A stretch of DNA of 48,226 nucleotides from an uncultured Bacteroidales bacterium. Its GTDB lineage: Bacteria > Bacteroidota > Bacteroidia > Bacteroidales > Muribaculaceae. A program made the position numbers and the translations under genes. Below are positions 12,867 to 33,628 of this stretch, piece by piece. Position 1 is the stretch's first letter; each line of letters starts with the position of its first letter. The stretch spans positions 1 to 48,226 of the forward strand of contig CACYSG010000008.1 in NCBI GenBank assembly GCA_902776955.1. The letters are read 5' to 3'. Under the pieces are notes generated by a model, which was not told where the DNA came from, searched no databases, and was given only the letters and a program-made list of their open reading frames with translations.

Positions 12867-13091
12867 TCACAGTTTGGATTTCACCATCTCGACGACACGG
12901 GCAAAGTCGGTCATCTCGGCAATCTCCTCGGGCTCCAGTTCGATATCCAGGGCCTCCTCAAGTTCGGATGCAAGCGTGAGATGGCGCAGCGAGTCCCAGC
13001 AGTCACAATTCTTCTGAGACACTTCGGTGGTCACATCGTCGATGCCAAACACCTCGCGCATGATTTCTAAAATCCTGTCTTCCAGATTCAT
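12867..13091 (-). CDS. Acyl carrier protein 1 (partner of FkbH)
   Basis: 74 residues from ATG 13091. I chose this start because its ATG overlaps the FkbH stop in an ATGA junction (13088-13091), a sign of translational coupling; an in-frame codon at 13112 would add a non-homologous tail. The four-helix ACP pattern is clear, with the phosphopantetheine serine at Ser34 in CWDSLRHL. It is very acidic. In known systems an FkbH protein loads a glyceryl unit from 1,3-bisphosphoglycerate onto its own ACP, so this is the expected glyceryl carrier here. Confidence 0.9.
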   Translation of the reverse strand: MNLEDRILEIMREVFGIDDVTTEVSQKNCDCWDSLRHLTLASELEEALDIELEPEEIAEMTDFARVVEMVKSKL

Positions 13092-14680
13092 AATACTCTT
13101 ATGTTGTAACAATTCTTAATTTCATACACACTGTCGAGACTCATCTCGTAACGGCGGGTGCCGTCGTCGTCAACCGTCACACACGTCATTCCCATGCGGT
13201 CAAAGAAATCGGCCGTTTGGCCGTTCTTGGCCGTCGGGAGGTAACAGGCCGTCACGCGTCGATACCCGTCCAGACGCATCAGGTTGAGCACCGTCTTAAA
13301 GAAGGCCTCTTCAATTCCCTTGCCCAGGACGCGGCAACTGGCGAGCAACGTGTCGATATCAAGGGTCACGTCGTCAACCGGGTGCAGGAACATCGTTCCC
13401 GTGATGCCGCTGTCGCCGAAGCGGTCACTCACATTCACGCAAAAGATGTGCCAACCGCTCTTGAGGAACCCGTTGACGTCGGCCTCGGTGTAGCGGCGGG
13501 TAGTGAGGTTGAACTGGTTGGTCTTTTGGGTCATCTGGGCGATGCGCGGCAGGTTGTGCTCATCGGCGGGGATGACGTCCAGCGAGATGTCCAGGCTGTA
13601 GAGGTAGTCCTCAAAGTCGACAAAACGCGATTGCTCGGCACGGCGCATGGCGTTGGCCTGGTACTGCGCGGTCTTGGCGCGGTCCTCGTCGGTCACGGCG
13701 TAGATGCGAAAATATCTGTCTACCAGCTGCTTGAAGAACGGCATGAGCTGGTAAGGTTTGTCGGGGAAATCGGGCACCGTGACCTCGGGCAACATCTGCT
13801 TGACCAATTCACGCTCGGCGGGATTATCGTCGACAAAGACCATGCTGTCCAGACCGATATTCAGTTCGGCGGCCAGTTCTCGCAGGTTGGTCGCCTTGTC
13901 GTTCCAGTTGATGCGCAGGGCGCTGAAGTGCTCGCGCTTGAGCACCATCGACGGGTTTTTGTCCCATGCCTCCTGCACGTCGGCCTCATTGTTCTTGCTG
14001 CACACCGCCAGGATCACGCCAGTCGACGAGAGTTGCGACAGGGCTTTCTGCCACATGTAGTAGGCCTTGCCGGGATAGTCCCCGCCCAGCGAGATGCCAT
14101 CGACGCCGTCCTCGCCCAGGACCCCACCCCACAGGGTATTGTCCAAATCCAGGACAAGGCACTTCTTGCGCTTGAGCGCCATCTCGTCCTCGATGCGTTG
14201 CCACCAGGCCTGGAAATCACGCGCCAGCCGCGGATTTAGCAACGTCTGGGACATGAGGTAGTACTTCCAGTTCACGAGCGTCTCGGCGTCATAGCGTGAG
14301 GTGAATTCGCCGAAGTCCACCCACTTGACCCCCGCGCGCTCGCGGGACAAGCGCATGGCGTGGTCGTTAAAGGCCGACACCGCATCGGCGACAGCCACCT
14401 CGTCACCAGTGAGCCTCAAGGGGAAGAGGTTGACCAGCGAGAAAATGATAAACGGCTTGGACGGGTCGGCGGCCGAGAGCACCAGGTCCAGCTGGTCGCT
14501 ATAGGCCGTCACCTCCTGAGCCAGTTGCGCGCTATCGGCGTTGACCGGCACCTGATAGAACCAGATGTAGCGGTCCACATCGCCGGGAATCCGACTGATG
14601 TCACCATAGCCCGAGAAGGTCATCCCGGAATCACCGAGGAAAGCCTCTACCGTTTGATTGCGAAAGACAAATGTCGTCAT
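13088..14680 (-). CDS. FkbH-like HAD-IIIC protein (glyceryl-ACP synthase type)
   Basis: 530 residues. The N-terminal 1-165 part is the SGNH-like region often fused to FkbH. The HAD domain (about 172-330) shows LVLDLDNTLWGGVLGE with Asp178 and Asp180, a VCSKNNE motif (226-232) and FVDDNPAER (282-290), the last being a hallmark of the FkbH family. The C-terminal part (about 380-530) is GNAT-like. Characterised relatives dephosphorylate 1,3-bisphosphoglycerate while moving the glyceryl group to an ACP. This gene is overlapped by an ACP gene, which supports the same reaction. In a glycan locus the glyceryl group may end up as an N- or O-acyl decoration. Confidence 0.9.
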   Translation of the reverse strand: MTTFVFRNQTVEAFLGDSGMTFSGYGDISRIPGDVDRYIWFYQVPVNADSAQLAQEVTAYSDQLDLVLSAADPSKPFIIFSLVNLFPLRLTGDEVAVADAVSAFNDHAMRLSRERAGVKWVDFGEFTSRYDAETLVNWKYYLMSQTLLNPRLARDFQAWWQRIEDEMALKRKKCLVLDLDNTLWGGVLGEDGVDGISLGGDYPGKAYYMWQKALSQLSSTGVILAVCSKNNEADVQEAWDKNPSMVLKREHFSALRINWNDKATNLRELAAELNIGLDSMVFVDDNPAERELVKQMLPEVTVPDFPDKPYQLMPFFKQLVDRYFRIYAVTDEDRAKTAQYQANAMRRAEQSRFVDFEDYLYSLDISLDVIPADEHNLPRIAQMTQKTNQFNLTTRRYTEADVNGFLKSGWHIFCVNVSDRFGDSGITGTMFLHPVDDVTLDIDTLLASCRVLGKGIEEAFFKTVLNLMRLDGYRRVTACYLPTAKNGQTADFFDRMGMTCVTVDDDGTRRYEMSLDSVYEIKNCYNIRVL

Positions 14681-14713
14681 ATTGGATAGTGGGTGGTATT
14701 CAGTGCTATTGTT

Positions 14714-15724
14714 TTATCCCTTGATCGTGCGGTAAACCCAGCTGAGCAGATTCCACAGGCCGGGTCGCATCATCAAGACGTGGATGAGTTTCCATTTCCT
14801 GCCATAGTAGTTGGCCTCGGGGCCCACACAGGGGAAAGGATAAAGGCCGGACTGACGCATCCGTTCCACCGTCGGTTTCACGAAGCCGCAGGTCAAGGCC
14901 TTGGTCAAGGCGAAATACAGGTACACATTACGCAGTCCCGCGACGCTGGCAGGCGCCTGCTGTCCCGTCGACGCCTCGTGGCGCTTGATGGTCTCGTCAA
15001 TCAACGAGGCCGATTCCACCTGGCTCATGATGCGTCGGTGCAGGTGCTCGACGTTGCGATTGTTCATCGCGCTATTGCCACGCTGCACGTAATGGTAAAG
15101 CGCGGCATCGGACTGCACCATGCGGCGGGCATTCAACAGCAGGTGGGTGATGAGCTCGCCGTCCTCGCAGACGATGAGCGACTCGTTGAAGCGCCAGCCA
15201 CCGCCGTTGAGGTATTCACGGTTGATCAGGAAACGCCAGATGTAAGGGGTCATGCTGTGCCCCTTGAGGTAGGTCACGCCATCGGTCACCGGTGAGGCCT
15301 CAAAGTTGTCGTTGCGGGATGCGGGCAGTTTGTTACCCTGTTCGTCCTCACACTCGTAATTGAACACGAGGACATCCAGCCCCTCATCGATGGCCTGCCG
15401 CAGGAGCGAAGCCATCTGGCCCGGCTGCAGATGGTCGTCGCTGTCGACAAACTGCAGGTAGCGGCCGCGGGCGCCAGCGATAGCCCGATTGCGGGCGGCA
15501 CTCACGCCGGCGTTCTTCTGGGCCATCAGCCTCACCTGAGGATGCTCCTTGGCAAAGGCTTCGATGAGTTCGCGGCTGCCGTCGGTCGAGCCGTCATCCA
15601 CCACGATGACCTCATACTCGCCATCTTCCAGACCCTGGTCGAGTATAGAAAGCAAACACCTGAGCACATAGGGCTCGGTGTTATAAACTGGTACGATATA
15701 TGTCAACAGGGGGGATTCGGTCAT
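14714..15724 (-). CDS. GT2 family glycosyltransferase
   Basis: 336 residues from ATG 15724; an in-frame codon at 15748 would overlap the VOC gene and add residues not seen in GT2 proteins. The GT-A fold begins with LTYIVPVYNTEPYV (7-20), VVDDGSTDGS (41-50) and the metal-binding FVDSDD (92-97). A C-terminal helix-rich tail follows. It adds a sugar from a nucleotide donor to a lipid-linked glycan at the inner face of the membrane. It lies between the VOC and FkbH genes, so sugar and acyl chemistry are interleaved here. Confidence 0.9.
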   Translation of the reverse strand: MTESPLLTYIVPVYNTEPYVLRCLLSILDQGLEDGEYEVIVVDDGSTDGSRELIEAFAKEHPQVRLMAQKNAGVSAARNRAIAGARGRYLQFVDSDDHLQPGQMASLLRQAIDEGLDVLVFNYECEDEQGNKLPASRNDNFEASPVTDGVTYLKGHSMTPYIWRFLINREYLNGGGWRFNESLIVCEDGELITHLLLNARRMVQSDAALYHYVQRGNSAMNNRNVEHLHRRIMSQVESASLIDETIKRHEASTGQQAPASVAGLRNVYLYFALTKALTCGFVKPTVERMRQSGLYPFPCVGPEANYYGRKWKLIHVLMMRPGLWNLLSWVYRTIKG

Positions 15725-15725
15725 C

Positions 15726-16130
15726 TCACTCCGTTTCGACCAACTCAATCAGGCCCGTATCTTTCTTGAAAAGGAACGCCACACGGTGGCCGTCCATTGC
15801 CGGTGCGGCGACAGGGCCGCTCACCAGCAGGAAGCGCTCACCACGCAGCGACTGTATCGTCTCCTCGATATCAGCCACCTCGTAGCACAGGTGATAGGGG
15901 GTGACACCGGCGTTAGCCAGCGTGCGTGCCACAGGGCTCTTATCGTCGAGCGGCTCCAGCAGTTCAAGACGCGGCGCATCGGCCTTGTCGAGGAAGCACA
16001 CCTTGACATGCTGCACCTCGTCCTCGACCACTGCCGACGCCGAATATCCCATCGCCTCGTAGAAGGTGCGGGTTTTCTCTATCCGGTGGCAAGCGATGCC
16101 GATGTGATGAAACGTCAACTTGTTATCCAT
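15726..16130 (-). CDS. VOC-superfamily protein, methylmalonyl-CoA epimerase-like
   Basis: 134 residues from ATG 16130; TGA of the KASIII gene and this ATG share one base (TGATG, 16128-16132). Two beta-alpha-beta-beta-beta halves are visible, with metal-ligand candidates His9 (FHHIGIA), a Glu in RLELLEP, a His in YHLCYEV and a Glu in GLIELVE. This pattern is that of methylmalonyl-CoA epimerase and glyoxalase relatives, which act on the alpha carbon of acyl thioesters or lactoylglutathione. Coupled translation with a KASIII suggests it handles an acyl-ACP or acyl-CoA of the same pathway, for example as an epimerase. Substrate unknown. Confidence 0.82.
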   Translation of the reverse strand: MDNKLTFHHIGIACHRIEKTRTFYEAMGYSASAVVEDEVQHVKVCFLDKADAPRLELLEPLDDKSPVARTLANAGVTPYHLCYEVADIEETIQSLRGERFLLVSGPVAAPAMDGHRVAFLFKKDTGLIELVETE

Positions 16131-17179
16131 CAATACTCGATTACAGGCGAGACATTACAGTCACGCGTCTGCATGATTGCAGCGCCCCAACTCAATCCCG
16201 CACCGAAGGCACTCAGTACGACCGTGTGAGTACCGTCCAGGCGGCCGTTCAGTTCACTGGAAATCGTCAAGGGAACCGACGAACTGCTCGTGTTGCCGTA
16301 CTTGCTGATGCAATAGGGCACCCGCTCGGGCGATATCTTGAGTTTTTTCACAAAGAAGTCCATCATGAAGCGGTTGGCCTGATGGAAGACCAGATAATCC
16401 ACATCATCGATGGTGTGGTCGGTCTCCTGCAGGAGGCGCTTGATGCTCTTAGGCACCTTGCTGATGGCAAAATTGAAGACATCCATGCCGTCCATGAACA
16501 CTTCCAGGTCGTTACGGATGTTCCCTTCCTCCTGCTCCCGCTCGACACATGACTCGGGCGTGATGGGATTGCGCATTCCGGCATGTATCTTGAGGGTGTT
16601 CTCCCCGCTGCCGTCGGTATAGAGCATAAACGTCGAATCGCCATAGTCGCCCTTCTCGATCAGGGTCGCCGTGCCCGCGTCGCCATACAGTGGCCAATCC
16701 ACCTTGTCGCGGCGGTTCACAATCTTGGAAAAAGTCTCGCCGTCAAGGAGCAGCACCCGGTTGACGCCTTCCATCGAGGCGTAGGCAAAAGCCGTGCTCA
16801 GCGCGTAGATATACCCCGAGCAGCCCAACGTGATGTCAAAGCACATCGTCTCGCGGGGCAATCCCAGCCGTCGCTGCAGCAGGCATGACGTGGCGGGGAT
16901 GCGGTAGTCGCCCGTCTGGCTCATGAACAAGAGCACATCGATGCTCTCGGGCGCGATGTCGTTGTCGGCCATCAGTTGCTGTGCCGCCTTGAAGCACAGG
17001 TCACTGGCCATGACGTCAGGCGCCGCAATGCGTCGCTGATCGATGCCTATGTTGTTGATTGTCTTCTCTATTTCTTCCTCGGGTATGAGATAGCCCAAGT
17101 CCCTGTTGGAAACGATTTCGGGAGGCACACATGCACTAAGGGCCTTAATTCCCACTCCATGGAATGTAACTTTAGCCAT
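16130..17179 (-). CDS. Beta-ketoacyl-ACP synthase III (FabH-like), paralog 1
   Basis: 349 residues, thiolase fold. The catalytic triad is intact: Cys120 (LGCSGYIYAL), His266 (VFHQANR) and Asn296 (KYGNTSSSS). FabH enzymes join an acyl-CoA starter to malonyl-ACP; related proteins move acyl groups to sugars or other hydroxyls. It shares with the other two KASIII of this window the CSG(Y/W) and HQAN blocks but differs in the substrate-pocket stretches. It follows ACP 2 (gap 136 bp) and is overlapped by the VOC gene. It is not the housekeeping FabH by context, being deep in a glycan operon. Confidence 0.92.
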   Translation of the reverse strand: MAKVTFHGVGIKALSACVPPEIVSNRDLGYLIPEEEIEKTINNIGIDQRRIAAPDVMASDLCFKAAQQLMADNDIAPESIDVLLFMSQTGDYRIPATSCLLQRRLGLPRETMCFDITLGCSGYIYALSTAFAYASMEGVNRVLLLDGETFSKIVNRRDKVDWPLYGDAGTATLIEKGDYGDSTFMLYTDGSGENTLKIHAGMRNPITPESCVEREQEEGNIRNDLEVFMDGMDVFNFAISKVPKSIKRLLQETDHTIDDVDYLVFHQANRFMMDFFVKKLKISPERVPYCISKYGNTSSSSVPLTISSELNGRLDGTHTVVLSAFGAGLSWGAAIMQTRDCNVSPVIEY

Positions 17180-17315: not shown

Positions 17316-17549
17316 TCACTCTACCCTTTCCTTGACGATATTGTACAGATCCTCGATGGTGTTGCTGTTGCGGATGTCATCACCGCGGAATTCAACATCA
17401 TATTCCTCATCAATCATTGCAATGACCGACAAGGCAAAAAGCGAGGACCACTCGTCAAGTTCCTTAAAACGGGTGGTGGCTTGTATGGTATCAGGCTCTG
17501 TTTCTTCGAACAGGTCCGTGAAGTTCTCTATGAAACGTTCAAGGCTCAT
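17316..17549 (-). CDS. Acyl carrier protein 2
   Basis: 77 residues from ATG 17549; a longer in-frame start at 17606 adds a tail that no other ACP here has and would run through the predicted promoter region. Sequence ELDEWSSLFALSVIAMIDEEY matches helix II of ACPs, with the phosphopantetheine serine most likely Ser36. The residue before it is Ser, not the usual Asp of the DSL motif. It resembles ACP 4 (24040-24285) closely, including the WSSL motif, and ACP 5 more distantly. It probably serves the KASIII gene that follows. Confidence 0.88.
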   Translation of the reverse strand: MSLERFIENFTDLFEETEPDTIQATTRFKELDEWSSLFALSVIAMIDEEYDVEFRGDDIRNSNTIEDLYNIVKERVE

Positions 17550-17593
17550 CACATTATATAACGCAATTATACCAGATATATTTTGACGGGGCG

Positions 17594-17601
17594 CAAAATT
17601 A
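17594..17601 (-). promoter_or_regulatory. Possible -7 box before ACP 2
   Basis: The minus strand has TAATTTTG (perfect TAnnTTTG) in the 130-bp gap between the NeuD-like gene and ACP 2, 45 bp before the ATG. The upstream half shows only A/T-rich sequence without TTTG at the right spacing, so this is a tentative second internal promoter. Confidence 0.35.
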
Positions 17602-17679
17602 AGCAAAAAAACTTATATTCTACCCGTTTTTTTATAGATTCTTGAGTTTTTACCCTTAAAATGGCCGATGGTGATAATG

Positions 17680-18321
17680 TCAGAAGTCAAATTTCATGGC
17701 AGGAACACCCAGATAAGTGCAGTTGTCGCGCGGTTGCGTCATCAGGACACTGTTGGCACCCAGGGTGACACCGTCACCGATGGTCATGCCCTGCAACACG
17801 ACGCTGGCCACACCCAGCAGGTTGTTATTGCCGATGGTGATACCTCCCGAGAGGTGAGCTCCCGGCATCAGGCCGTTGAAGTCCCCGATGGTATTGTCGT
17901 GGCCCACAACGACGTGGTCATTGAACAGATTGAAGCTGCCGATGATGACATCGCAAGATATCATGCAGTGGTTCTGAATGATATTGCCCTCGCCCATGGT
18001 GACCGTGTGCTCGTCCACATAGAACAGCGACGGGTCGATCAGATTGGGGAAGGTGATATGGGGGTTAGTAATACTCTCACGGATGCGGCGCACGGCCTTG
18101 TTGTCGTTGATTGCAATCGCCACGGCCAGCGGTTCCTGGACCTGCGACAGGGTTTCCATGCCGCCCAGGACCTTACCGTAACTAGAAACCGACAAGCCGG
18201 CCTCCTTGGTGTCGTCAAAGAAACCGATAAGATGCCATTGTCCTCCATGGTTATTGATTCTCTTGATCAGGCAGGCGACCTCCTTGCCGAATCCGCCTGC
18301 ACCATATATTGCGATGTTCAT
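17680..18321 (-). CDS. NeuD/PglD-type sugar O- or N-acyltransferase
   Basis: 213 residues from ATG 18321 (the in-frame extension to 18405 overlaps the aminotransferase gene and is not homologous). An N-terminal Rossmann-like part with IAIYGAGGFGKEV (3-15) binds the nucleotide sugar. A left-handed beta-helix of hexapeptide repeats (about 100-205, e.g. IGSFNLFNDHVVVGHDNTIGD) binds the acyl donor. PglD and NeuD use acetyl-CoA to acylate amino sugars. Directly after a DegT aminotransferase (40-bp gap), the pair matches PglE-PglD: amination at C4, then acylation. It is a close paralog of the C-terminal half of the FemAB fusion at 26334-28100. The donor could be one of the special acyl-ACPs. Confidence 0.9.
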   Translation of the reverse strand: MNIAIYGAGGFGKEVACLIKRINNHGGQWHLIGFFDDTKEAGLSVSSYGKVLGGMETLSQVQEPLAVAIAINDNKAVRRIRESITNPHITFPNLIDPSLFYVDEHTVTMGEGNIIQNHCMISCDVIIGSFNLFNDHVVVGHDNTIGDFNGLMPGAHLSGGITIGNNNLLGVASVVLQGMTIGDGVTLGANSVLMTQPRDNCTYLGVPAMKFDF

Positions 18322-18361
18322 AGCTTTTCTTTTATTAGGATAAATAGTTGAAATTGGCCAA

Positions 18362-19504
18362 TCACTTCTTGCAGCAGGACTTGATCTCGCTGGCCACGAG
18401 CTCAACGTGCTCGTCGCTCACCCAGGGGCCGCTAGGCAGGCACAATCCCATCGTGAACAATTCCTCGCTCACGCCGTTGACATAGGCCGGCGCATCCTTG
18501 AACACGGGCTGGGTGTGCATCGGTTTCCACAACGGGCGGGACTCGATGTTGCAAGCATCAAGATGCAGGCGCAGGGTCTCGTAGTCGGTTCCGGTCAACT
18601 TCGGGTCAATCAGGATGGTGTTGAGCCAGTAGTTGCTGTCAGAGCGCTCGTCGGCATTGGTGTGAACCGTGATGCCGTCAACGTCTGCAAACAACTCCAC
18701 GTAGCGGTCGCACAGGTGGCGGTGATGAGCCAGATGCTCGTCGAGCACGGTCATCTGTCCCCTGCCGATGCCGGCGCAGATGTTGCTCATGCGGTAGTTA
18801 TAGCCGATTTCCTTGTGCAGGTAATAGGGCATGGGCTCACGGGCCTGCGTCGCATAGAACATGATCTTCTTCTTGGTATCCTCGTCGGGGCAAATCAAGG
18901 CACCGCCACCGCTGGTGGTGATCATCTTGTTACCGTTGAAGCTCATGATGCCGTACTCGCCGAACGTGCCGCACAACTGTCCGCGATAGCGTGAACCGAA
19001 GGCCTCGGCCGAGTCCTCAACGACGGGAATCTCATAGCGACGCGCGATCTCCATGATGTCATCAATCTTGGCGGGCATGCCATACAGATAAACGGGTATG
19101 ATGGCGCGGGGCTTGCGTCCGGTCTTGGCGATGCGGTCCTTAATGGCATCCTCAAGCAGGTTGGGATCCATATTCCATGTGTCGCGCTCGCTATCGACAA
19201 ACACGGGAGTGCCGCCCTGATAGACGATAGGATTGGCGCTGGCCGAGAATGTCATCGATTGACAGATCACCTCGTCACCACGTCCTACACCCAGGTTGAC
19301 CAGAGCCAGATGGATCGCCGCAGTGCCCGAACTGAGGGCCACCACATGCTTGCCCTCGCCGCACAACTGCTCAAGGTCCTGCTCAAAGGCGTTCACATTG
19401 GGTCCTAGGGGAACTACCCAGTTGGTGTCAAAGGCCTCCTGGATATATTTCATTTCCTGTCCACTCATGTGGGCGAGACAAAGTAAAATTTTGCTGTTTG
19501 CCAT
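18362..19504 (-). CDS. DegT/DnrJ/EryC1/StrS sugar aminotransferase (PglE-like)
   Basis: 380 residues, PLP fold type I. The Schiff-base lysine is Lys193 in SFNGNKMITTSGGG and the PLP-ring Asp164 is in VVEDSAEAFGS. GTAAIHLAL (60-68) is the phosphate-binding loop. These enzymes put an amino group on a 4-keto (or 3-keto) nucleotide sugar with glutamate as donor. The nearest expected partner, a nucleotide-sugar 4,6-dehydratase, is not in this window. Together with the NeuD-like gene downstream it should give an N-acylated 4-amino-4,6-dideoxy sugar (bacillosamine-like or perosamine-like). Confidence 0.93.
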   Translation of the reverse strand: MANSKILLCLAHMSGQEMKYIQEAFDTNWVVPLGPNVNAFEQDLEQLCGEGKHVVALSSGTAAIHLALVNLGVGRGDEVICQSMTFSASANPIVYQGGTPVFVDSERDTWNMDPNLLEDAIKDRIAKTGRKPRAIIPVYLYGMPAKIDDIMEIARRYEIPVVEDSAEAFGSRYRGQLCGTFGEYGIMSFNGNKMITTSGGGALICPDEDTKKKIMFYATQAREPMPYYLHKEIGYNYRMSNICAGIGRGQMTVLDEHLAHHRHLCDRYVELFADVDGITVHTNADERSDSNYWLNTILIDPKLTGTDYETLRLHLDACNIESRPLWKPMHTQPVFKDAPAYVNGVSEELFTMGLCLPSGPWVSDEHVELVASEIKSCCKK

Positions 19505-19517
19505 ATCTATATGTTTT

Positions 19518-24020: not shown

Positions 24021-24039
24021 CAATGATTCTTGTGATTCC

Positions 24040-24285
24040 TTAGCGTTTGGGGTCAAGAATGCGTTTCTCAACCACGTTGAACAAGTCCTGGATAGTGACC
24101 GAGTTGATAATATCGTTACCCTTGACGATGATATTATACTCATCATCAATCATCGCGATGATTGACAAAGCAGTCAACGACGACCAGTCTTCCAACTCCT
24201 TGAACTTGGTCTCGGCAGTAATTGCTTCGGGATCAGTGTCGTCTAATTGTGCGGCGAAATTATCAATAAACTCCTGAATATTCAT
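24040..24285 (-). CDS. Acyl carrier protein 4
   Basis: 81 residues. Helix II reads ELEDWSSLTALSIIAMIDDEYNI, with Ser36 as the likely phosphopantetheine site, preceded by Ser in place of the standard Asp. Nearly the same block is present in ACP 2 (17316-17549), so the two are recent paralogs. It is the first gene after the strong internal promoter at 24344-24374 and lies 19 bp before ACP 3. Having two different ACPs side by side suggests that two acyl intermediates are kept apart or handed from one to the other. Confidence 0.9.
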   Translation of the reverse strand: MNIQEFIDNFAAQLDDTDPEAITAETKFKELEDWSSLTALSIIAMIDDEYNIIVKGNDIINSVTIQDLFNVVEKRILDPKR

Positions 24286-26333: not shown

Positions 26334-28100
26334 TTATTTGAAGTTAAACTTCTTGGCGGGCACGCCGATGTAAGTACTGCCATCTTTGGGCTTGGTCATC
26401 AACACGCTGCCAGCGCCCAGGGTCACATTATTACCGACGGTTATCTTCTGCAGCACAACGCTGTCAACACCCAGCAGATTGCAGTTACCTATCTTAACGG
26501 CGCCCGACAGGTGCACGCTAGGCATCAATACATTGAAATCACCTATCACATCGTCATGACCCAGAACGTTGGCACCGTTAAACACGTTGAAGTTACCGAT
26601 GGTCACGTCACAGGTGGCGCTGCAGTTGTCTTGTATGATATTGCCCCGCCCGATCTTGAACGTCTCGGGGTCAAGCACCTTGAAAGAAGGCGCGATGAGA
26701 TTCGGGAAGCTGATATTGGGATTGGTGATGCCCTCAAAGAGGAGTTTACGTGTCATCGGGTCGCCGACGGCAATGGCCAGGCCGAGCGGTTCCTCGATGG
26801 AATTGAGGGCTTCTTTTCCTCCGAGGACCTTTCCGTAGTGGGATATTTGGGTCCCGATAGGGATATTGTCGTCATAGAACCCGATAAACTCCCATTGTTC
26901 ATCGCTTGAGTGATTGATGCGCAGTATACCTCCTGCCACCTCACGGCCAAAGCCACCCGCGCCATAAACCGCAATCCGCTTAACCTTGGTCTCAACAACG
27001 GTTGCAACCTGAGAATTGTTTTCGCCCAGTTTATCCCTATAGACCGGGAAGAACGAAGAGTTGACGTCAAATTGCGGGTCTTTTTCTTTCCTCCAATCCA
27101 CCAACTGGTTATAGACGCCCAGGTTGAAGACCTCCTGACCAATTGAGAACCTGAAATCACTATTCCTGTTGAATGCGGCCTTGAACTTGTAAAGGTTGTC
27201 TTCGCCAGAGCCGACGCCGCCGCCCAGGTGGAAGAGTTTGAGCCCATTGCGGCAACCCCACAACGAGGCCTCGTAAAGCAATAGATTGGTCGGCGCATAC
27301 TGACGGAATTCCGCCACTGTTCCCGACAAGTGATAATGCATCAATCCATTGCCATAGAGCATGATCGAGATCGCGATGATCTGGCCGTTGAGCACAGCGT
27401 AGAACATTTCGGTGTTTTCGCTCAGGCTGTCGATGATCGACTTATAGAACGTATCGTCAAAGAAATAGTAATCCTCGGCATGATCATACCTCATGGTCTC
27501 ATCATAGATCTCTTTAAACGACGCCATGAGTTCGGGCGTGGGCTTGCTGTGCTCGATCGTCACGCCGTTCTTGATCGCCTTGCGGATCATGTTACGGTTC
27601 TTGCTGGTGATGTTTTGCCAGATGATTTCCTCGGAGCTCAAATCGATGGCAATGGTTTTTCCCAGATCAATGACCTTGCTCAACTGCCTCATGAAACAAG
27701 CATTCTTCAACGCGGGACTATACCTGACAAAGTTGCTCACATAGTTGTGCTCAAGCATGTAATGGGTATACTCAGCATAGAATGTCTGCAGGTTCTGCTC
27801 ACAGGAGTCCCCTTCAAATATCCAGCCACCGTAGCCATAGGGAGTCGTCAAGTCATACCACTTGCCCGGCTGGAACTTATCTGTCATCCATGGCAACAAT
27901 GACAAGTCTCGCTTCATAGCCACATACATGCCCTGGAGGTCTCCCGAGTCCGATTTATAGTAAAGCAGTACCGGGTCGCCATCGCCATGAAGCATGAAGG
28001 CCTCGACATAGCCATGGAAATAGTAAACATCGTGGCTCTTGAACAACGAGACCACATCATTCCATTCAGTTTTTTGCGTAAATGTTATTATCTTAATCAT
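26334..28100 (-). CDS. Fusion: FemAB/GNAT-like acyltransferase + NeuD-type acyltransferase
   Basis: 588 residues in one frame. Residues 1-345 form a double-GNAT FemAB/BioF2-like protein (TSKNRNMIRKAIKNG at 165-179, ISIMLYGNGLMHYHLSG at 244-260, LFHLGGGVGSGEDNLYKFK at 289-307). Residues 373-588 are a full NeuD/PglD-like protein, starting KVKRIAVYGAGGFGREVAGG and ending in hexapeptide repeats. The second half is very similar along its whole length to the separate protein at 17680-18321. FemAB proteins add amino acids or acyl groups from activated donors to amines. The fusion may place two acyl or aminoacyl groups on one sugar. It overlaps the upstream PLP enzyme gene by 8 bp. Confidence 0.88.
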   Translation of the reverse strand: MIKIITFTQKTEWNDVVSLFKSHDVYYFHGYVEAFMLHGDGDPVLLYYKSDSGDLQGMYVAMKRDLSLLPWMTDKFQPGKWYDLTTPYGYGGWIFEGDSCEQNLQTFYAEYTHYMLEHNYVSNFVRYSPALKNACFMRQLSKVIDLGKTIAIDLSSEEIIWQNITSKNRNMIRKAIKNGVTIEHSKPTPELMASFKEIYDETMRYDHAEDYYFFDDTFYKSIIDSLSENTEMFYAVLNGQIIAISIMLYGNGLMHYHLSGTVAEFRQYAPTNLLLYEASLWGCRNGLKLFHLGGGVGSGEDNLYKFKAAFNRNSDFRFSIGQEVFNLGVYNQLVDWRKEKDPQFDVNSSFFPVYRDKLGENNSQVATVVETKVKRIAVYGAGGFGREVAGGILRINHSSDEQWEFIGFYDDNIPIGTQISHYGKVLGGKEALNSIEEPLGLAIAVGDPMTRKLLFEGITNPNISFPNLIAPSFKVLDPETFKIGRGNIIQDNCSATCDVTIGNFNVFNGANVLGHDDVIGDFNVLMPSVHLSGAVKIGNCNLLGVDSVVLQKITVGNNVTLGAGSVLMTKPKDGSTYIGVPAKKFNFK

Positions 28101-29133
28101 TACAGTATGAGTTACAATGGTTTATGATACCATACAGGTCCATTATGTCATCTTTGTTATATCGGGTATCACAATGAATTGACAACATCTGCTGCGAGAA
28201 ATCTTTCACAATCGGGGTCTTCTCGTCAGGTGTATTCCACAATATCGCAGGATAGACGTCATTATCAATCAAGGCTTTCCTGAAGCGGTTTCTCGCCTCC
28301 TTGTCACTAAAGACGATTGTCATCGAGAAGGGATTGCAACCGGTCGTCTCGGGCTCTAGTATCTTGAAGGCATCGCTGGCGGCGACCTTGTTCAAGAGGG
28401 ACCAATTCTCCCGTTTTCCTTTATACCACCGGTCGACGTCAAATTGCTCGAGATAGTCGACAGTCTCGGGGTCAAGTGCCGACACTTCCATGGAGTCCAA
28501 CGCCTCTTCGACGGCAATCATCGCGTTACGGAATTCTGTCTTATCCGTAATCTTGTTTTCCATATACAAGGCCTTCTGCCGCATTGCGTTCCACATTATC
28601 GCGGCAACCTCCTTGTTATGACTTGATTCGGCAGGCTCATTTTTTAATTCGTGCCCTTGGGGAGACCAAAGCATCCCGCCCTCGGCCAGCGGCAGCGTTT
28701 TCCTCAGGGAGGCGATACACCAGTCGGCATCACTGCTACAGGCCCAGGGGCCAATCAAGTCATGAGTGTGGTCCTCGACAACGGGCACCTTGATTGCTCG
28801 ATTGCTCCTCATCGACCTCAAGCCGAAATAGTTCACACGGAACAAGGCGTCCCCTTCTTCAAAGGGCAAGTCACGCACAACGTCATCCTCGTCAAACGTC
28901 GGGTAATCGGTATAGAACGCGACATTCACCCCCTCACGAAGCACCGAGCCCAGCACCTCGTAACAGAAGTATTCCGGCACCCACAAGCGTTTCCAACCCA
29001 TCTGCCTGTAAAGATCAATCAGGGCATGCCGCCCCGTCGCATAGTAAACCGCGTCAGGGTGGTAATGCCCGATTGTCCTTACAGCATTTACCTCTACAGG
29101 CAAATAATGGAAGTTGGAACCGAATTCCTTCAT
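28093..29133 (-). CDS. DegT-like PLP enzyme, divergent
   Basis: 346 residues with fold type I PLP features but far from standard sugar aminotransferases. TGRHALIDLY (33-42) is the phosphate loop, VVEDHTHDLIG gives Asp121, and the Schiff-base lysine is most likely Lys145 in ASLRKTLPLAEGG. It is shorter than DegT proteins by about 35 residues. ATG 29133 overlaps the epimerase stop (TAATG), and its end overlaps the FemAB fusion, so three genes are translationally linked. It may aminate a nucleotide sugar or act on an amino acid later used by the FemAB domain. Function uncertain. Confidence 0.75.
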   Translation of the reverse strand: MKEFGSNFHYLPVEVNAVRTIGHYHPDAVYYATGRHALIDLYRQMGWKRLWVPEYFCYEVLGSVLREGVNVAFYTDYPTFDEDDVVRDLPFEEGDALFRVNYFGLRSMRSNRAIKVPVVEDHTHDLIGPWACSSDADWCIASLRKTLPLAEGGMLWSPQGHELKNEPAESSHNKEVAAIMWNAMRQKALYMENKITDKTEFRNAMIAVEEALDSMEVSALDPETVDYLEQFDVDRWYKGKRENWSLLNKVAASDAFKILEPETTGCNPFSMTIVFSDKEARNRFRKALIDNDVYPAILWNTPDEKTPIVKDFSQQMLSIHCDTRYNKDDIMDLYGIINHCNSYCND

Positions 29134-30134
29134 TATCTTCCTCTAAGCTCGAGGAAACGATCAATCTTCATTTCCTCCCTATAGTTCTCAAACAGTTTGT
29201 GAACATCATATACCGGCTCGTAACCAAGTTCTTCCTTTGCATTGGTAATATCCATGAGGAAGCCGCCACCACTCTTGCGATCGGGGTCGATATATTCGAT
29301 TACCGACGGGTTGTCCTTGGGCGAGAACACATCAATAATCGCCTGGCACTGCTCCTGCAAGGTAACAGGAATACCAGTACCCACATTGTAGAAGCCACCC
29401 TCGCGGTCAGACAGCACCGCCTTGCATATCATCTGTGCGCAATCATAGACATGGACCATATCCTTGGCATAATTCGGATCGCCCCAGATGGTCAAGGGCT
29501 CGCCCTTGATGGCCTTGTTGATCTGCTGATACAAGGGACGCATCGTCTTTACGCCATTGGGATAGTAGTACTGATAGGGGCTATACTCATAAATCGTCGG
29601 GAACCTGAAGACAAACTTCTTGATACCGAACTCCTGGTAGTAGTGTTCCATCATCTCGATAGCGCAATTCTTGGCGATCACATATACGGCATGGTCACCG
29701 GTATAGGCAAAATTAGGTTTGTCGTAGGGGTCGATCACATGGTCACTCGGATAGAGGGAAACGTCGAACACCGTTTGACTGAACATCAGGCGGTCGGCCT
29801 TCACCTTGCGGCAGTACTCCAGCACATTGGTGGTACCGATTACAATGCTATCAATGTACTTGCGCGGATGATACTCACTCATGTAAGAGGGGATCTCGGC
29901 GGCAAGATGAATGACAGCATAGACATTCTCTTGGGGAAGATTTTCAAAATCTTCGGCTTTGGTCAGGTCAACAGAACAGTAACGAACGCCTTGCCTGGTC
30001 CAGAAATCCGTCTTTCTGCGCCCCGAGGCAATCACTTCGTATTTCTCTTTGTCAAAAAAGTTCAGGGCATATAACGTCAAATAAGAGCCCACATTACCCG
30101 TTGCACCGAAAATAATAATTTTTTTTCTTTCCAT
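29133..30134 (-). CDS. NAD-dependent epimerase/dehydratase (extended SDR)
   Basis: 333 residues from ATG 30134; in-frame codons further upstream fall inside the sugar-transferase gene. The Rossmann loop is IIIFGATGNVGS (6-17), and the active site YVIAK gives Tyr151 and Lys155; the usual Ser/Thr is in MFSQTVFDVS (117-126). Its length and the NVGTG...T substrate-binding block match nucleotide-sugar epimerases, reductases and dehydratases. It probably makes one of the sugar donors for this glycan. Whether it is an epimerase or a C4 reductase cannot be fixed. It begins 5 bp after the upstream stop. Confidence 0.88.
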   Translation of the reverse strand: MERKKIIIFGATGNVGSYLTLYALNFFDKEKYEVIASGRRKTDFWTRQGVRYCSVDLTKAEDFENLPQENVYAVIHLAAEIPSYMSEYHPRKYIDSIVIGTTNVLEYCRKVKADRLMFSQTVFDVSLYPSDHVIDPYDKPNFAYTGDHAVYVIAKNCAIEMMEHYYQEFGIKKFVFRFPTIYEYSPYQYYYPNGVKTMRPLYQQINKAIKGEPLTIWGDPNYAKDMVHVYDCAQMICKAVLSDREGGFYNVGTGIPVTLQEQCQAIIDVFSPKDNPSVIEYIDPDRKSGGGFLMDITNAKEELGYEPVYDVHKLFENYREEMKIDRFLELRGR

Positions 30135-30138
30135 AATA

Positions 30139-30801
30139 CTACTTATTTTTATTGCGATATTGTTCTTCAAATATTCTGATTGCTTCATTCTTGCGTTTGT
30201 CCCAGCCCAGGTCATCCACTTCGTTGGACAAGCCATTGCCTATATCCTTAGACGACAACACATTCTTCACTGTCATATAGAGGATTTTCAGGTCCAGTTT
30301 AAATGACAGATGATCCACGTACCATACGTCATACTTGAATTTGTTACCATAGGTAATGGTGTTTCTTCCGTTCACCTGAGCCCATCCCGTGATACCGGGA
30401 CGCACTTCATGTCGCCGTGCCTGTTCCTCATCATAAAGAGGCAGGAACCACGTGAGCAAGGGACGAGGGCCGATGAGTGCCATATCTCCCTTGAGGACAT
30501 TGATCAATTGGGGCAGTTCATCAAGAGACATGGCGCGAACGATGCGGCCCACCTTGGTCAAACGCTCTTTATTGGAAAGGAGTTCACCGTTGGCATCCCG
30601 TTCATCGGTCATCGTCTTGAATTTGATGACCTTGAAAATCTTTCCGTTCAGGCCCGGGCGCTCTTGAAGGAAGAACGCGCCGGCTCCCTTGTTGGCAAAA
30701 TGCAGCAATATCGTTACCACTATCAATATCGGGCTCACACAGATCAACCCGACAAGTGCTAACAGAAAATCGATCAATCGTTTGAAAAAGTGCTTGTACA
30801 T
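30139..30801 (-). CDS. Initiating sugar-phosphate transferase (PglC/WcaJ-type), copy 2
   Basis: 220 residues: the small monotopic phosphoglycosyl transferase form, with one N-terminal re-entrant hydrophobic helix (about 8-35) and the catalytic domain. Motifs are KFKTMTDERD (about 61-70), the long SLDELPQLINVLKGDMALIGPRP block and RPGITGWAQVNGRN. It moves a sugar-1-phosphate from UDP-sugar to undecaprenyl phosphate and so starts the repeat unit. The polar C-terminal tail (GNGLSNEVDDLGWDKRKNE) is longer than in its neighbour. The pair of tandem copies (25-bp gap) is unusual. Confidence 0.93.
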   Translation of the reverse strand: MYKHFFKRLIDFLLALVGLICVSPILIVVTILLHFANKGAGAFFLQERPGLNGKIFKVIKFKTMTDERDANGELLSNKERLTKVGRIVRAMSLDELPQLINVLKGDMALIGPRPLLTWFLPLYDEEQARRHEVRPGITGWAQVNGRNTITYGNKFKYDVWYVDHLSFKLDLKILYMTVKNVLSSKDIGNGLSNEVDDLGWDKRKNEAIRIFEEQYRNKNK

Positions 30802-30825
30802 TTATCTCTTAATGACTAGGATTTA

Positions 30826-31440
30826 TCAATTACCATTAAACTCTTTCATGGTAGCCTGACCCTCCTGGGAGATGCCCTCATGCTTGATCACCTTGCGTAT
30901 CGTGAGGCAGAAAATCTCCCAATCAATCTTGAATGAGCAATGGTCGACATACCACACATCCAGCTTGAATTTCTCACTCCACGAGACCTCATTACGGCCG
31001 TGGCACTGAGCCCATCCCGTAATGCCGGGGCGGACCTCATGCCGGCGGGCCTGCTCGGGCGTGTACCGCGGCAAATAGCGGGTCAGCAACGGACGTGGGC
31101 CAATCAGCGCCATGTCACCCTTGAGGACATTCAACAGCTGCGGGAGTTCGTCGATGCTTGTTGCACGGACAAAACGCCCAACCTTTGTCAAGCGGTCCTC
31201 GTCGGGAAGGAGGTTGCCCTCCTCATCCCGCTCGTCGGTCATGGTCTTGAACTTGATGATCTTGAAGATTTTGGCATCCTTTCCCGGGCGGTCCTGGATA
31301 AAGAACGCTCCGGCGCCCTTGTTGGCGAAATGCAGCCACACGGTCACTACCAGCAACACCGGTGACACACAGATCAGCGCCACCAATGAGATGATGAAGC
31401 CGAGCATCCGCTTGATATACTTGCGATATATGGTATTCAT
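30826..31440 (-). CDS. Initiating sugar-phosphate transferase (PglC/WcaJ-type), copy 1
   Basis: 204 residues, closely related to the gene after it: FHFANKGAGAFF-like membrane exit, KFKTMTDERD, SIDELPQLLNVLKGDMALIGPRP and RPGITGWAQCHGRN are shared. Differences cluster in the stretch after the ITGWAQ block (CHGRNEVSWSEK instead of VNGRNTITYGNK), near the sugar pocket, so the two may use different sugar donors. Both have intact acidic catalytic residues. Start ATG 31440 lies 9 bp after the deacetylase gene. Confidence 0.93.
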   Translation of the reverse strand: MNTIYRKYIKRMLGFIISLVALICVSPVLLVVTVWLHFANKGAGAFFIQDRPGKDAKIFKIIKFKTMTDERDEEGNLLPDEDRLTKVGRFVRATSIDELPQLLNVLKGDMALIGPRPLLTRYLPRYTPEQARRHEVRPGITGWAQCHGRNEVSWSEKFKLDVWYVDHCSFKIDWEIFCLTIRKVIKHEGISQEGQATMKEFNGN

Positions 31441-31449
31441 CGTATTGAT

Positions 31450-32328
31450 TTATTGGATTATCAATTTGGGTGCATTCTCCCAATCAATCAGCCCGTTGGC
31501 CTGGGCTACCGACACGAAACGCCAAGCGCGAATCAGGCGATTCATTTTGCTGAGGGCCGTTTTCTTGCCCAAATTGGTCTTCATGTGACGCTTGCGCCGA
31601 TTCAGCCAGGTGGCCGGTTCCTTGTAGTACCGTTCATAATTCTCCTTTGACATCATCTTGCTGGACGGTGTCAAGTCTCCGATGTGGAAATAACAGATGT
31701 TGTAATCACGCTTCTTCATTTCGCGATTGACAAACCAGAACGGGAAGAGTCTGAAATATCCACCACCCGAGAAGGCCACTTCCTTGTTAAGAAGCCTCGA
31801 AATCGTGATCGGGAACTCCTTGATGTCACCAGCAGGAGTCTTGACGAGCGTCGGGACCTGATTCCCGAAGTCGGGAAAACCGCCGAAGTCGTGCGCTGCG
31901 GGAAAAACCGATGCGTCAAACTCGATACCGCATTTGGCCAGGATCTCAAAAGCCCATTGATTCTCTTTCCCTATCGAGAAAGCGGGAGCGCGATAGGCCT
32001 TCACTTTACGGCCGATGCACTGCTCCAAGGCGTCAACTGCCTGACGCGTGTCCTCATAGACCTCGTCACGGCTCATTGTGTTGAGCCATGTGTGTTGATA
32101 GGAGTGACACCCGATATCATGTCCCCGGTCATTGATGCGCTTTACCACTTGAGGAAAATCCAGCGCCATCTGACCGATAACGAAAAAGGTCGCTTGAGTG
32201 TGCTGCTCATCAAGCACATCCAGAATGGAGTCCAGATATTGATCGAATACCTTGAAGCGGTCAGACCCCCTGCCATGCAGGAAGCTCTCGATGTACCACT
32301 CCTCTATGTCAAACGACAGGATATTCAT
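31450..32328 (-). CDS. Polysaccharide deacetylase (NodB homology, DUF3473 type)
   Basis: 292 residues, no signal peptide, so cytosolic or bound to the inner membrane. NodB motifs are visible: SFDIEEWY with Asp7, the metal-binding HSYQH with His75 and His79, and the YRAPAFSIG motif 3. The C-terminal SFSGGGYFRLFP-like block and FHIGDL motif fit the DUF3473 group that appears in exopolysaccharide loci. It would take an N-acetyl group off a lipid-linked sugar, leaving a free amine that one of the acyltransferases here could re-acylate with a different group. It is 15 bp after KASIII paralog 3. Confidence 0.9.
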   Translation of the reverse strand: MNILSFDIEEWYIESFLHGRGSDRFKVFDQYLDSILDVLDEQHTQATFFVIGQMALDFPQVVKRINDRGHDIGCHSYQHTWLNTMSRDEVYEDTRQAVDALEQCIGRKVKAYRAPAFSIGKENQWAFEILAKCGIEFDASVFPAAHDFGGFPDFGNQVPTLVKTPAGDIKEFPITISRLLNKEVAFSGGGYFRLFPFWFVNREMKKRDYNICYFHIGDLTPSSKMMSKENYERYYKEPATWLNRRKRHMKTNLGKKTALSKMNRLIRAWRFVSVAQANGLIDWENAPKLIIQ

Positions 32329-32343
32329 CTACGGGGGCTTTGT

Positions 32344-33348
32344 TTATTTGTTCATCTTCACCACGACGGCTCCCCATGAGTAGCCTACGCCGAATCCACA
32401 CAGCAGCACATTGCCCCTGAGGCTATTATCCTTATGCGCCTCGACAAGGCAGATGGGAACGCTGGTGGAGACGGTATTGCCCACATTTTCCATGTGGATA
32501 TAGAAGTTCTCCTCGGGGATGCCCATTTTCTTCCTCAGGAAATCGAGCATATACCTGTTAGCCTGATGCAGGATGAACAAGTCTATATCTTGCTTGGCAA
32601 GATGATTCTTGTCAAGGACCTCGTTAATCACCTGAGGCACATTGCGCTGGGTGAAGGCAAATATCTGGGCACCGTTCATGAACAGGTAGTCTGACGACAC
32701 GGGGTTGCCGTTCTTGTCAAACGTCAAGTCATTCTGCTGCTCGGGCAACCTCGACGCACCAGACTTGACAATCAGGTTGTTAGCGCCCTTACCGTTGGTT
32801 CCCAAGGCGAAGTCCAGAATCTCGGCGACGCCATCGTCAGACACCAGTGTGGCCGAAGCGCCGTCCCCGAAGATGGTTCGGTTTCCTTTATCCTTGGGGT
32901 GCAGATACTTATTGTAGGTCTCGGCAGTCAGCAGCAGCACGTTGTTGGCAACACCTGCAAGGATAAGTCCCTTGGCCACAGCCAGGCCATATATATATCC
33001 CGAGCAGCCCAGGTTGAAGTCAAAGGCGCCTACGTCCTGACGCAACCCAAGGCGGGTCTGCAACAGGCAGGACGACGAGGGCAGGAAATAATCAGGGCTC
33101 TGGGTGCACAGCAGGATGAAATCGATGCTCGCGGGGTCGATATTGTTTTCCTCAAACAACCTGACAGCCGCTTTCTCGGCAAGGTCGGTCGCGGTTTCTC
33201 CAGGTGCCGAGACATGGCGCTGGTTGACACCAACTTTCTCGGTAATCTTCTCGACAGACCATTCGGGGAAATCCTTGACAATGGCCTCGTTGGTGACTAC
33301 CGTCTCGGGCAGATAATATGCCACATGCTTAATAAAAGCCTTTTTCAT
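32344..33348 (-). CDS. Beta-ketoacyl-ACP synthase III (FabH-like), paralog 3
   Basis: 334 residues, closest to true FabH in length. Triad Cys115 (NLGCSGYIYGL), His261 (LHQANRY) and Asn291 (NVGNTVSTS) is complete, and GFGVGYSWGAVVV closes the fold. It follows ACP 5 by 49 bp and precedes a polysaccharide deacetylase, which links the acyl product to sugar amine chemistry. As with the other two, it is not likely to be the housekeeping FabH, because it sits in the glycan operon with its own ACP. Starter substrate unknown. Confidence 0.92.
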   Translation of the reverse strand: MKKAFIKHVAYYLPETVVTNEAIVKDFPEWSVEKITEKVGVNQRHVSAPGETATDLAEKAAVRLFEENNIDPASIDFILLCTQSPDYFLPSSSCLLQTRLGLRQDVGAFDFNLGCSGYIYGLAVAKGLILAGVANNVLLLTAETYNKYLHPKDKGNRTIFGDGASATLVSDDGVAEILDFALGTNGKGANNLIVKSGASRLPEQQNDLTFDKNGNPVSSDYLFMNGAQIFAFTQRNVPQVINEVLDKNHLAKQDIDLFILHQANRYMLDFLRKKMGIPEENFYIHMENVGNTVSTSVPICLVEAHKDNSLRGNVLLCGFGVGYSWGAVVVKMNK

Positions 33349-33397
33349 TCACTCAAAGAATTATGGGGTTTAGCCCTTAATGGAACCTTATCCTTGA

Positions 33398-33628
33398 TTA
33401 ACTCAGGGAGTTAACGTAATTGAACAGATCCTCGACGGTACGCGTCTCGCTCAACTCATCCACATCGACAATGATGCCATATTCCTCGTCAACCATCGAA
33501 ATCAACGAGAGAAGCATCACCGAGTCCCATTCCTCAAGTTCGGAATACACGGTATCGGCCTTGATGCTGGCAGGGTCGGTCTCTTCAAAGATGTTAGCAA
33601 ATTTCTTGATAAAATCGTTTATTTCCAT
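33398..33628 (-). CDS. Acyl carrier protein 5
   Basis: 76 residues. ELEEWDSVMLLSLISMVDEEYGI carries Ser36, the phosphopantetheine site, with the usual Asp before it. Along the whole length it follows the same pattern as ACP 2 and ACP 4 (xIxxFIxxFxxxxxETDP at the start), so the three form one subfamily, with ACP 1 and 3 outside it. It directly precedes KASIII paralog 3. Confidence 0.9.
   Translation of the reverse strand: MEINDFIKKFANIFEETDPASIKADTVYSELEEWDSVMLLSLISMVDEEYGIIVDVDELSETRTVEDLFNYVNSLS

Follow-up and report, generated by a model that had tools for sequence, protein, structure and literature searches.

A Bacteroidales glycan operon with three KASIII modules, predicted to place short hydroxyacyl groups on amino sugars

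We investigated a 48,226-nt stretch of DNA (the window; contig C8) from an uncultured, rumen-type gut bacterium of the Bacteroidales whose assembly comprises 3.23 Mb in 123 contigs. The product of a long minus-strand operon in the window is likely a surface polysaccharide with short hydroxyacyl groups on its amino sugars. Three β-ketoacyl-ACP synthase III (KASIII) modules would build these groups on private acyl carrier proteins (ACPs). Direct support comes from the identity of the genes, their conserved catalytic residues, their linkage and the selection acting on them. A first-pass annotation had likewise proposed ACP-borne synthesis of short hydroxyacyl or glyceryl groups for attachment to amino sugars, and given the domains, the linkage and published precedents this is still the best reading. 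To that annotation we add the division into three acyl modules (A, B and C), the loss of coenzyme A (CoA) contact residues in the KASIIIs, the association of close relatives of the first KASIII (KAS1) with FkbH, and module C with its NodB-fold deacetylase. Feature coordinates are listed in Table 1; G, C and L numbers are our handles for genomes, contigs and loci.

Gene content, conservation and distribution

The minus-strand gene run spans ~48004 down to 10736. The first-pass annotation had outlined a minus-strand glycan region at 12867-33628; the run of glycan genes is there, but its end is not, as same-strand genes continue to ~48004. Across the 27 genes of 12867-36987, neighbouring genes are separated by -110 to +136 bases, and the strongly negative values reflect over-called starts of open reading frames (ORFs). 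The proteins of this run were scanned with Pfam and NCBIfam, except for those at 37964-39028, 39046-40134, 41321-42409 and 10736-11788; the first three of these look like glycosyltransferases. In the scanned proteins, the FkbH, AMP-forming ligase, short-chain dehydrogenase/reductase (SDR), VOC protein and metallo-β-lactamase (MBL) fold hydrolase named previously all matched their families, and an ATP-grasp protein and PglD-like acyltransferases matched theirs.

All five ACPs predicted earlier are real by our analysis. Four score above the PF00550 cut-off, and the fifth, ACP2, falls below it with an attachment serine that is invariant in 77/77 aligned sequences. The serine is equally invariant in ACP1 (85/85), ACP3 (33/33) and ACP4 (56/56), all counts with the window included. 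Two details needed revision: the ORF at 23790-24149 has its probable start at 24020, and the attachment serine of ACP2 and ACP4 lies in a WSSL motif, not DSL. Elsewhere in the host genome, on contigs C17 and C74, PF00550 also occurs within frames of 2426 and 1455 amino acids, which are perhaps nonribosomal peptide synthetase-like.

The enzymes around the operon ACPs keep their key residues. In FkbH, whose best PDB sequence match is 3slr, D178, D180, T182 and C227 are kept at >=99% across 79 aligned sequences. The VOC protein scores 72.8 bits against metmalonyl_epim, under the cut-off of 114.95, and its presumed metal ligands (H10, E57, H81 and E130) are invariant in 71/71. We take these conserved FkbH and VOC residues to have their catalytic roles here. 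The PglD-like protein at 17680-18405 scores 156.3 against TIGR03570, just below the cut-off of 160.8, and its PDB matches are a pilin glycosylation protein, VioB, and perosamine and bacillosamine N-acetyltransferases. The PglD part of the fusion at 26334-28100 is closely alignable to it. Top PDB sequence matches for the DegT aminotransferase at 18362-19504 are 1o61 and 4ztc, which we take to be C. jejuni PglE.

No acyl-dehydratase or malonyl-transferase family matched among the operon proteins scanned, in agreement with the first-pass annotation. Its further claim that enoyl reductase is absent is less clear-cut: the SDR matches PF13561, which carries the Pfam title "Enoyl-ACP reductase" and is a broad family, and its NCBIfam matches are FabG/SDR-like.

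Most of the operon is under purifying selection and is syntenic in four further members of the genus, G163 (L145/L146), G192 (L147/L148), G195 (L149/L150) and G199 (L151/L152); the gene order of module B is common to all four. For G163 and G192, which form a close pair, dN/dS for 21 genes is 0.00-0.19, with the SDR compared over 157 residues only; comparisons with the window itself often have saturated dS, making those ratios indicative only. Given this synteny and these low ratios, the grouping is not due to chance. Gene decay is likewise rejected, since dN/dS is low and the attachment serines are intact; the degraded ACP and KASIII genes that would have spoken against the earlier proposal were not found in these relatives. 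The four genomes vary in glycosyltransferase number. None of them has a match to GT2b or the epimerase, and G199 additionally has none to DegT2 or BTR1. A second tandem KAS3-ACP5 pair in G195 and G199 (L150, L151) brings those operons to four KASIIIs and six ACPs.

We also queried 149 genomes of the family with KAS1, where glycan-type KASIIIs score >=193 bits and housekeeping FabHs ~158 bits or less. Glycan-type KASIIIs are present in 17/149. The host genome has four, and any other family genome has at most two. The fourth host KASIII lies near a contig end on C88 (L038, 2198-5825), beside homologues of the aminotransferase, PglD and SDR, and L038 is possibly a second R-group locus of this genome. 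In another family of the order, L196 (G241:C11, 2124-9880) is a glycan locus with three KASIIIs, two ACPs, two SDRs, PglD, deacetylase and tandem GNAT; L107 has three KASIII matches. Therefore, the triple-KASIII arrangement is not unique to the window.

The KASIII enzymes and their linked genes

The three KASIIIs (KAS1, KAS2 and KAS3) align with E. coli FabH at C112, H244 and N274, bearing out the earlier claim of complete Cys-His-Asn triads. The triad is kept in 152/152 KASIII relatives, so condensation is expected of all three enzymes. In contrast, all three window KASIIIs lack five FabH residues, W32, R36, R151, K214 and R249, that the housekeeping FabHs of sister genomes retain without exception (13/13). 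We take these to be CoA/ACP-contact residues. In KAS1/KAS2/KAS3 they are replaced by K/K/K, N/S/K, K/T/K, N/G/A and F/F/Y, respectively. This loss suggests that the window KASIIIs take ACP-bound primers (glyceryl-ACP1 and ligase-charged ACP3) rather than acetyl-CoA, a prediction made from the alignment.

Pairwise identity among the three is 31-37%, and they fall in separate clades (tree supports of 0.98, 1.0 and 0.999); recent duplication of one KASIII is rejected on these grounds. Branching order among the three groups is poorly supported (0.32 and 0.61).

A profile of eight KAS1-type sequences retrieved 325 relatives, the best 80 loci of which were kept. Partners were counted within ~10 kb on the same strand. 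ACP1 is found at 78 of these best 80 loci, FkbH at 77, SDR at 76, VOC at 68, ACP2 at 63, DegT at 49, a PglD-fusion match at 48, a NeuD match at 47, KAS2 at 43, ACP4 at 41, MBL at 40, BTR2 at 34, and the ligase and ACP3 at 32 each. Counted in the 80 are the four syntenic genomes, together with four further G-handle loci (identical KAS1). The relatives come from assemblies labelled various Bacteroidota, with single ones labelled Treponema, Opitutia and Opitutales, where binning errors are possible. The nearest named KAS1 relatives are from assemblies of rumen, goat and deer that carry the labels Muribaculaceae, Prevotellaceae or Bacteroidales.

The family sample is a less biased check on the FkbH-KAS1 linkage than the 80-locus set. 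There, FkbH is present at 5/5 loci whose KAS1 has >=52% identity and at 0/15 other glycan-KASIII loci (Fisher p 6e-5), with the 52% cut set after the data were seen and the next identity below being 48%. In the tree, the wider KAS1 clade has 88 members (support 0.98). Within it is an FkbH-rich subclade of 83 members (support 0.82), four of which lack FkbH in the stretch examined; two of those four are on a contig that ends there (L113). L043-L046, at 45-47% identity, belong to the wider clade and have no FkbH in the stretch examined, so the FkbH link is a feature of the subclade. A search of 295 genomes of the order gave FkbH matches at E<=1e-60 in 18 genomes, window included. The KAS1-VOC-FkbH-ACP1 type is seen in just two, the window and G361 (same contig as L119), and in the remaining 16 the stretch examined has no KASIII match.

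Module C combines the NodB-fold deacetylase, KAS3, ACP5 and a tandem-GNAT acyltransferase (GNAT2). Residues D7, H75 and H79 of the deacetylase are kept in 13/13 sequences, and we presume their catalytic roles are as in NodB. The GNAT2 model (pLDDT 71) matches GNAT proteins in Foldseek (E 3.8e-8, TM ~0.5). A GNAT2 profile built from seven sequences was positive in 5/295 order genomes, this one included. A deacetylase of >=150 bits occurs in the stretch examined in 4/4 other GNAT2 genomes versus 0/16 KAS3 loci without GNAT2 (Fisher p 2e-4), although two of those 16 have weak deacetylase matches. The two genes are adjacent in three of the four genomes and separated by three genes in one. A KASIII lies within ~2 kb of the pair at L196 and L198 and at ~10 kb at L199, and none was seen at L197. 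At L156, a GNAT2-profile member, deacetylase, KAS3, ACP and GNAT are consecutive, at 36, 57, 42 and 25% identity.

KAS3 relatives at E<=1e-80 were found in 31 genomes other than the host's. Of the 18 KAS3 loci examined, 16 have an ACP match and 14 an SDR match. At >=80% identity, KAS3 is confined to 5/101 genus genomes, this one included, so module C as found here is narrowly distributed. Nod-factor gene sets bring together a deacetylase (NodB), an N-acyltransferase (NodA), a condensing enzyme (NodE) and an ACP (NodF). Module C is alike in having a deacetylase with conserved Asp and His residues, an acyltransferase, a condensing enzyme and an ACP; it differs in that KAS3 is a KASIII, GNAT2 has no Pfam match to NodA, and the context is a polymer operon.

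Proposed pathway and alternatives

The sugar is probably of the UDP-Qui2NAc4N type found in Flavobacterium psychrophilum, as judged from the structural relatives of the PglE- and PglD-type enzymes, the two PF02397 transferases and a PF02719 dehydratase (400 bits) at G000:C61. The first-pass annotation counted two DegT-type proteins. That at 18362-19504 stands; the one at 28093-29133 has no Pfam, NCBIfam or PDB-sequence match. In Foldseek, sugar aminotransferases of fold type I and cysteine desulfurases match its model, which is of low confidence (pLDDT 59), so that an aminotransferase role is plausible, not proven.

For the pathway we infer the module boundaries as working units, the substrates, the order of steps, the sharing of a single SDR and all of the products. 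In module A, a UDP-4-amino sugar would arise through the PglE-like aminotransferase and a 4,6-dehydratase encoded on another contig. FkbH would load a glyceryl unit onto ACP1, KAS1 with VOC would elongate an ACP-bound primer, and the SDR would reduce the ketone. The PglD-like enzyme would then acylate the 4-amine with the hydroxyacyl group borne by ACP2, and a PglC-like transferase would hand the sugar to the lipid carrier. Module B (ligase, ACP3, ACP4, KAS2, SDR and the second PglD) would follow the same course from a ligase-activated acid. In module C, the deacetylase would remove an N-acetyl group and the tandem GNAT would install an acyl group made by KAS3 on ACP5, in the manner of NodB and NodA in Nod-factor synthesis.

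A more specific version, which we regard as possible but on the unlikely side, is a glyceryl-primed KAS1-VOC-FkbH-ACP1 line for a C5 polyhydroxyacyl amide, plus the NodB/NodA-like N-acetyl swap, with up to three different private acyl decorations per polymer. Here KAS1 would take glyceryl from ACP1, not CoA, and condense it with malonyl-ACP2. VOC would reset the stereocentre beside the ketone, the SDR would reduce it, and PglD would add the polyhydroxy C5 acyl, e.g. 3,4,5-trihydroxypentanoyl, as an amide on a bacillosamine-type sugar.

Several points weigh against the proposed function in general or this version of it. The 80 loci were chosen by KAS1 similarity and overlap our other sets, and the post hoc identity cut and L043-L046 were noted above. 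At the 80 loci, VOC was not seen at 12 and FkbH not at three, one of which, L113, ends just past VOC. At L179, VOC adjoins FkbH without a KASIII. Arginine at position 151 is retained in 9/91 KAS1 and 9/47 KAS2 relatives, and lysine there (KAS1 and KAS3) is a mild change. A single SDR would have to serve three KASIIIs, and malonyl-ACP would be supplied from elsewhere, since no malonyl-transferase was seen in the operon. The 4,6-dehydratase on C61 is unlinked to the operon, and its PglF role is assumed, as PF02719 is not specific to PglF. Finally, the scheme leaves the two initiating transferases and the two PglD proteins unexplained.

Within the same overall function, the modules may instead act independently: FkbH, VOC and ACP1 would give a plain, perhaps epimerised, glyceryl group, and KAS1, SDR and ACP2 would separately make 3-hydroxybutyryl, in the style of the viosamine island. 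We consider this a serious candidate, though we would not bet on it. VOC at L179, and near FkbH at L192 with no KASIII match in the stretch examined, suggests that VOC may partner FkbH rather than KAS1. Furthermore, the 16 FkbH genomes of the order without a KASIII match fit this variant, KASIII, SDR and ACP without FkbH are common, and the KAS1-clade members without FkbH give it more weight. However, FkbH tracks the close KAS1 relatives in both the family sample and the 80 loci, with largely fixed gene order; therefore, KAS1 may be adapted to FkbH. The loss of CoA-contact residues also disfavours acetyl-CoA priming.

It is improbable that the KASIIIs do not condense at all and instead, like CerJ or ChlB3, transfer ready-made acyls from ACP or CoA to sugars. 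KASIII, FkbH, ACP and sugar genes do co-occur, and some acyltransferases have the KASIII fold, among them CerJ, which acts on a sugar hydroxyl (PMC9573744, as described there). However, ChlB3 and CerJ have a Cys-His-Asp triad by that published description, and all 152 relatives have Asn at the FabH column; CerJ-like transfer was rejected as first choice for this reason. Separate acyltransferases also sit beside the ACPs, and the SDR near 76/80 KAS1 loci would be superfluous for acyl transfer alone.

Very improbable is a tetronate cassette, in which KAS1 would join glyceryl-ACP1 to a β-ketoacyl-ACP and close a tetronic acid ring, glycan-attached or released. We know of no tetronate on a capsule. 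The tetronate cassette is nonetheless the nearest relative of KAS1-VOC-FkbH-ACP1: the nonthmicin cluster table lists KASIII, FkbH and ACP as neighbours in that order (PMC7256010), and the order is the same here, with VOC (in the window also a GT2 glycosyltransferase) between. Unlike that cassette, the operon has a glycan context and a linked SDR and PglD, which point to a linear hydroxyacyl amide, and the two tailoring-gene families (2-oxoacid-dehydrogenase-type acyltransferase and hydrolase) have no Pfam match among the operon proteins scanned. Least probable of all is a free secondary metabolite with incidental glycan neighbours: KAS3-SDR-ACP triplets do occur at L052, L053, L204 and L205 in stretches without homologues of the window glycosyltransferases, but here the genes are interleaved with aminotransferase, PglD, initiating transferases, deacetylase and glycosyltransferases in one run kept in four other genomes, and DegT and an initiating transferase (BTR2) lie near 49/80 and 34/80 KAS1 loci.

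Known systems and the remaining genes of the window

The first-pass annotation named Vibrio cholerae O1 RfbK/RfbL, an ACP and ligase in an O-antigen locus, as precedent and was aware of no comparably large set beside an EpsG polymerase. That claim is not supported as worded, given closer precedents (PMC6519341, PMC3927599 and PMC4875605) and L196. We compare by gene description, as given in the parts of these papers that deal with the loci. F. psychrophilum wfpB-G, a Bacteroidota glycan locus, encodes two KAS, an ACP, a ketoreductase, PglD and PglC for 3,5-dihydroxyhexanoyl on Qui2NAc4N (PMC6519341). The amide was determined chemically and the gene roles by prediction; the PglD-type acyltransferase is predicted to take its acyl from the dedicated ACP, and the pathway includes PglE/PglF (PMC6519341). 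PglE, PglD-type, dedicated ACP, KAS, ketoreductase and PglC-type proteins are all present here. Unlike wfp, whose description gives two KAS, one ACP and no mention of FkbH (PMC6519341), the window has three KASIIIs, five ACPs, FkbH, VOC, MBL, ligase, a second PglD, a deacetylase and a tandem GNAT.

The Pseudomonas syringae viosamine island (DegT VioA, KASIII VioS, ACP, SDR VioR and VioB) has a proposed N-3-hydroxybutyryl amino sugar, and the glycan lacks the modified viosamine once vioR is deleted (PMC3927599). Like that island and the P. aeruginosa PAK glycosylation island, the operon groups DegT, KASIII, ACP, SDR and a VioB-type enzyme; the viosamine island has one KASIII and one ACP, serves a flagellin glycan, and is described with seven genes without FkbH, VOC or ligase (PMC3927599). 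Enterobacteriaceae flagellin glycosylation islands contain ACPs, fatty-acid CoA ligases, FabG, LuxE and LuxC (PMC4875605). ACPs, a ligase and a FabG type are shared with the window, and LuxE/LuxC recur in relative L050; KASIII and FkbH, both in the window, are not named in that description (PMC4875605). At L050, a glycan locus, an 826-amino-acid LuxE-LuxC fusion (14474-16954; PF04443+PF05893) adjoins an ACP3/ligase pair.

The wfp and viosamine precedents make the general function likely and take away any claim that the operon is unprecedented. It looks like a larger variant of known R-group loci, not a new kind of system. What is new is its scale, the gene combination, the KAS1-VOC-FkbH-ACP1 cassette and module C. 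Among the top-listed open-licence PubMed Central papers, none by title or abstract has a glycan operon with three KASIIIs or a glycan cassette of the KASIII-VOC-FkbH-ACP type, and none has a deacetylase-KASIII-ACP-GNAT cassette. Surface antigens are affected by which N-acyl groups a bacterial sugar carries, as in F. psychrophilum, where lipopolysaccharide antigenicity varies between strains whose R-group genes differ (PMC6519341, in the part on these strains). The making of unusual sugar N-acyl groups is mostly predicted from gene names. With the enzymes in one conserved modular operon, acyl-group structure might be predictable from gene content. The operon also offers a test of KASIIIs that seem to receive their primers from ACP, not CoA, as well as a compact set of tools for making acylated amino sugars.

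Table 1. Features of the minus-strand gene run, by window coordinates
Feature	Coordinates	Strand	Evidence
Membrane acyltransferase, 3' end of run	11805..12827	-	PF01757
ACP1, adjoins FkbH	12867..13112	-	PF00550 23.2 bits; probable start 13091
FkbH, glyceryl-ACP-synthase-like HAD protein	13088..14680	-	TIGR01686 293 bits
GT2 glycosyltransferase	14714..15748	-	PF00535
VOC metalloenzyme, methylmalonyl-CoA-epimerase-like	15726..16133	-	PF13669
KAS1, KASIII	16130..17179	-	PF08541+PF08545
ACP2, WSSL motif	17316..17606	-	PF00550 16.9 bits, cut-off 20.8; probable start 17549
PglD/VioB-family sugar N-acyltransferase	17680..18405	-	PF17836; ORF start over-called
DegT aminotransferase, PglE-like	18362..19504	-	PF01041
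MBL-fold hydrolase	19518..20105	-	PF00753
Sugar-transfer-associated ATP-grasp	20149..21249	-	PF14397
KAS2, second KASIII	21266..22327	-	PF08541+PF08545
AMP-forming acyl ligase	22331..23821	-	PF00501 237.5 bits
ACP3	23790..24020	-	PF00550 35.4 bits; ORF over-called to 24149
ACP4, WSSL motif	24040..24285	-	PF00550 24.6 bits
SDR, FabG-like ketoreductase	24390..25148	-	PF13561/PF00106; NCBIfam SDR/FabG
GT2 glycosyltransferase	25194..26273	-	PF00535
FemAB/GNAT acyltransferase fused to second PglD-like domain	26334..28100	-	PF13480, PF17836
Divergent aminotransferase-like protein (second "DegT")	28093..29133	-	Foldseek only
NAD-dependent sugar epimerase/dehydratase	29133..30236	-	PF01370
Initiating sugar-phosphate transferase 1	30139..30801	-	PF02397
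Initiating sugar-phosphate transferase 2	30826..31440	-	PF02397
NodB-fold polysaccharide deacetylase	31450..32328	-	PF01522; TIGR03006 177 bits, below cut-off
KAS3, third KASIII	32344..33348	-	PF08541+PF08545
ACP5	33398..33628	-	PF00550 31.0 bits; attachment Ser 7/7, window included
GT4 glycosyltransferase	33703..34821	-	PF00534
Tandem-GNAT acyltransferase, GNAT2	34838..35824	-	Foldseek; no Pfam match
EpsG-family protein	42449..43651	-	PF14897

Among the remaining operon genes, the EpsG-family protein is the probable polymerase. No flippase family matched among the operon proteins in the Pfam scan; a flippase may sit past the upstream contig end. The MBL-fold hydrolase is perhaps an editing thioesterase. 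A membrane acyltransferase of the type at 11805-12827 also adjoins ACP1 in G163, G192, G195 and G199. At the 5' end of the gene run, 46550-48004 (minus strand) encodes an aminoglycoside phosphotransferase/choline-kinase-like protein (PF01636) adjoining a HAD phosphatase (PF13419).

On the plus strand, the protein at 3024-5390 has by eye the look of a secreted cysteine peptidase of the C10 type, with a dockerin-like repeat at its C terminus, and the similar adjacent pair at 1432-2058 and 2177-2806 appears by eye to be deoxynucleoside kinase-like.

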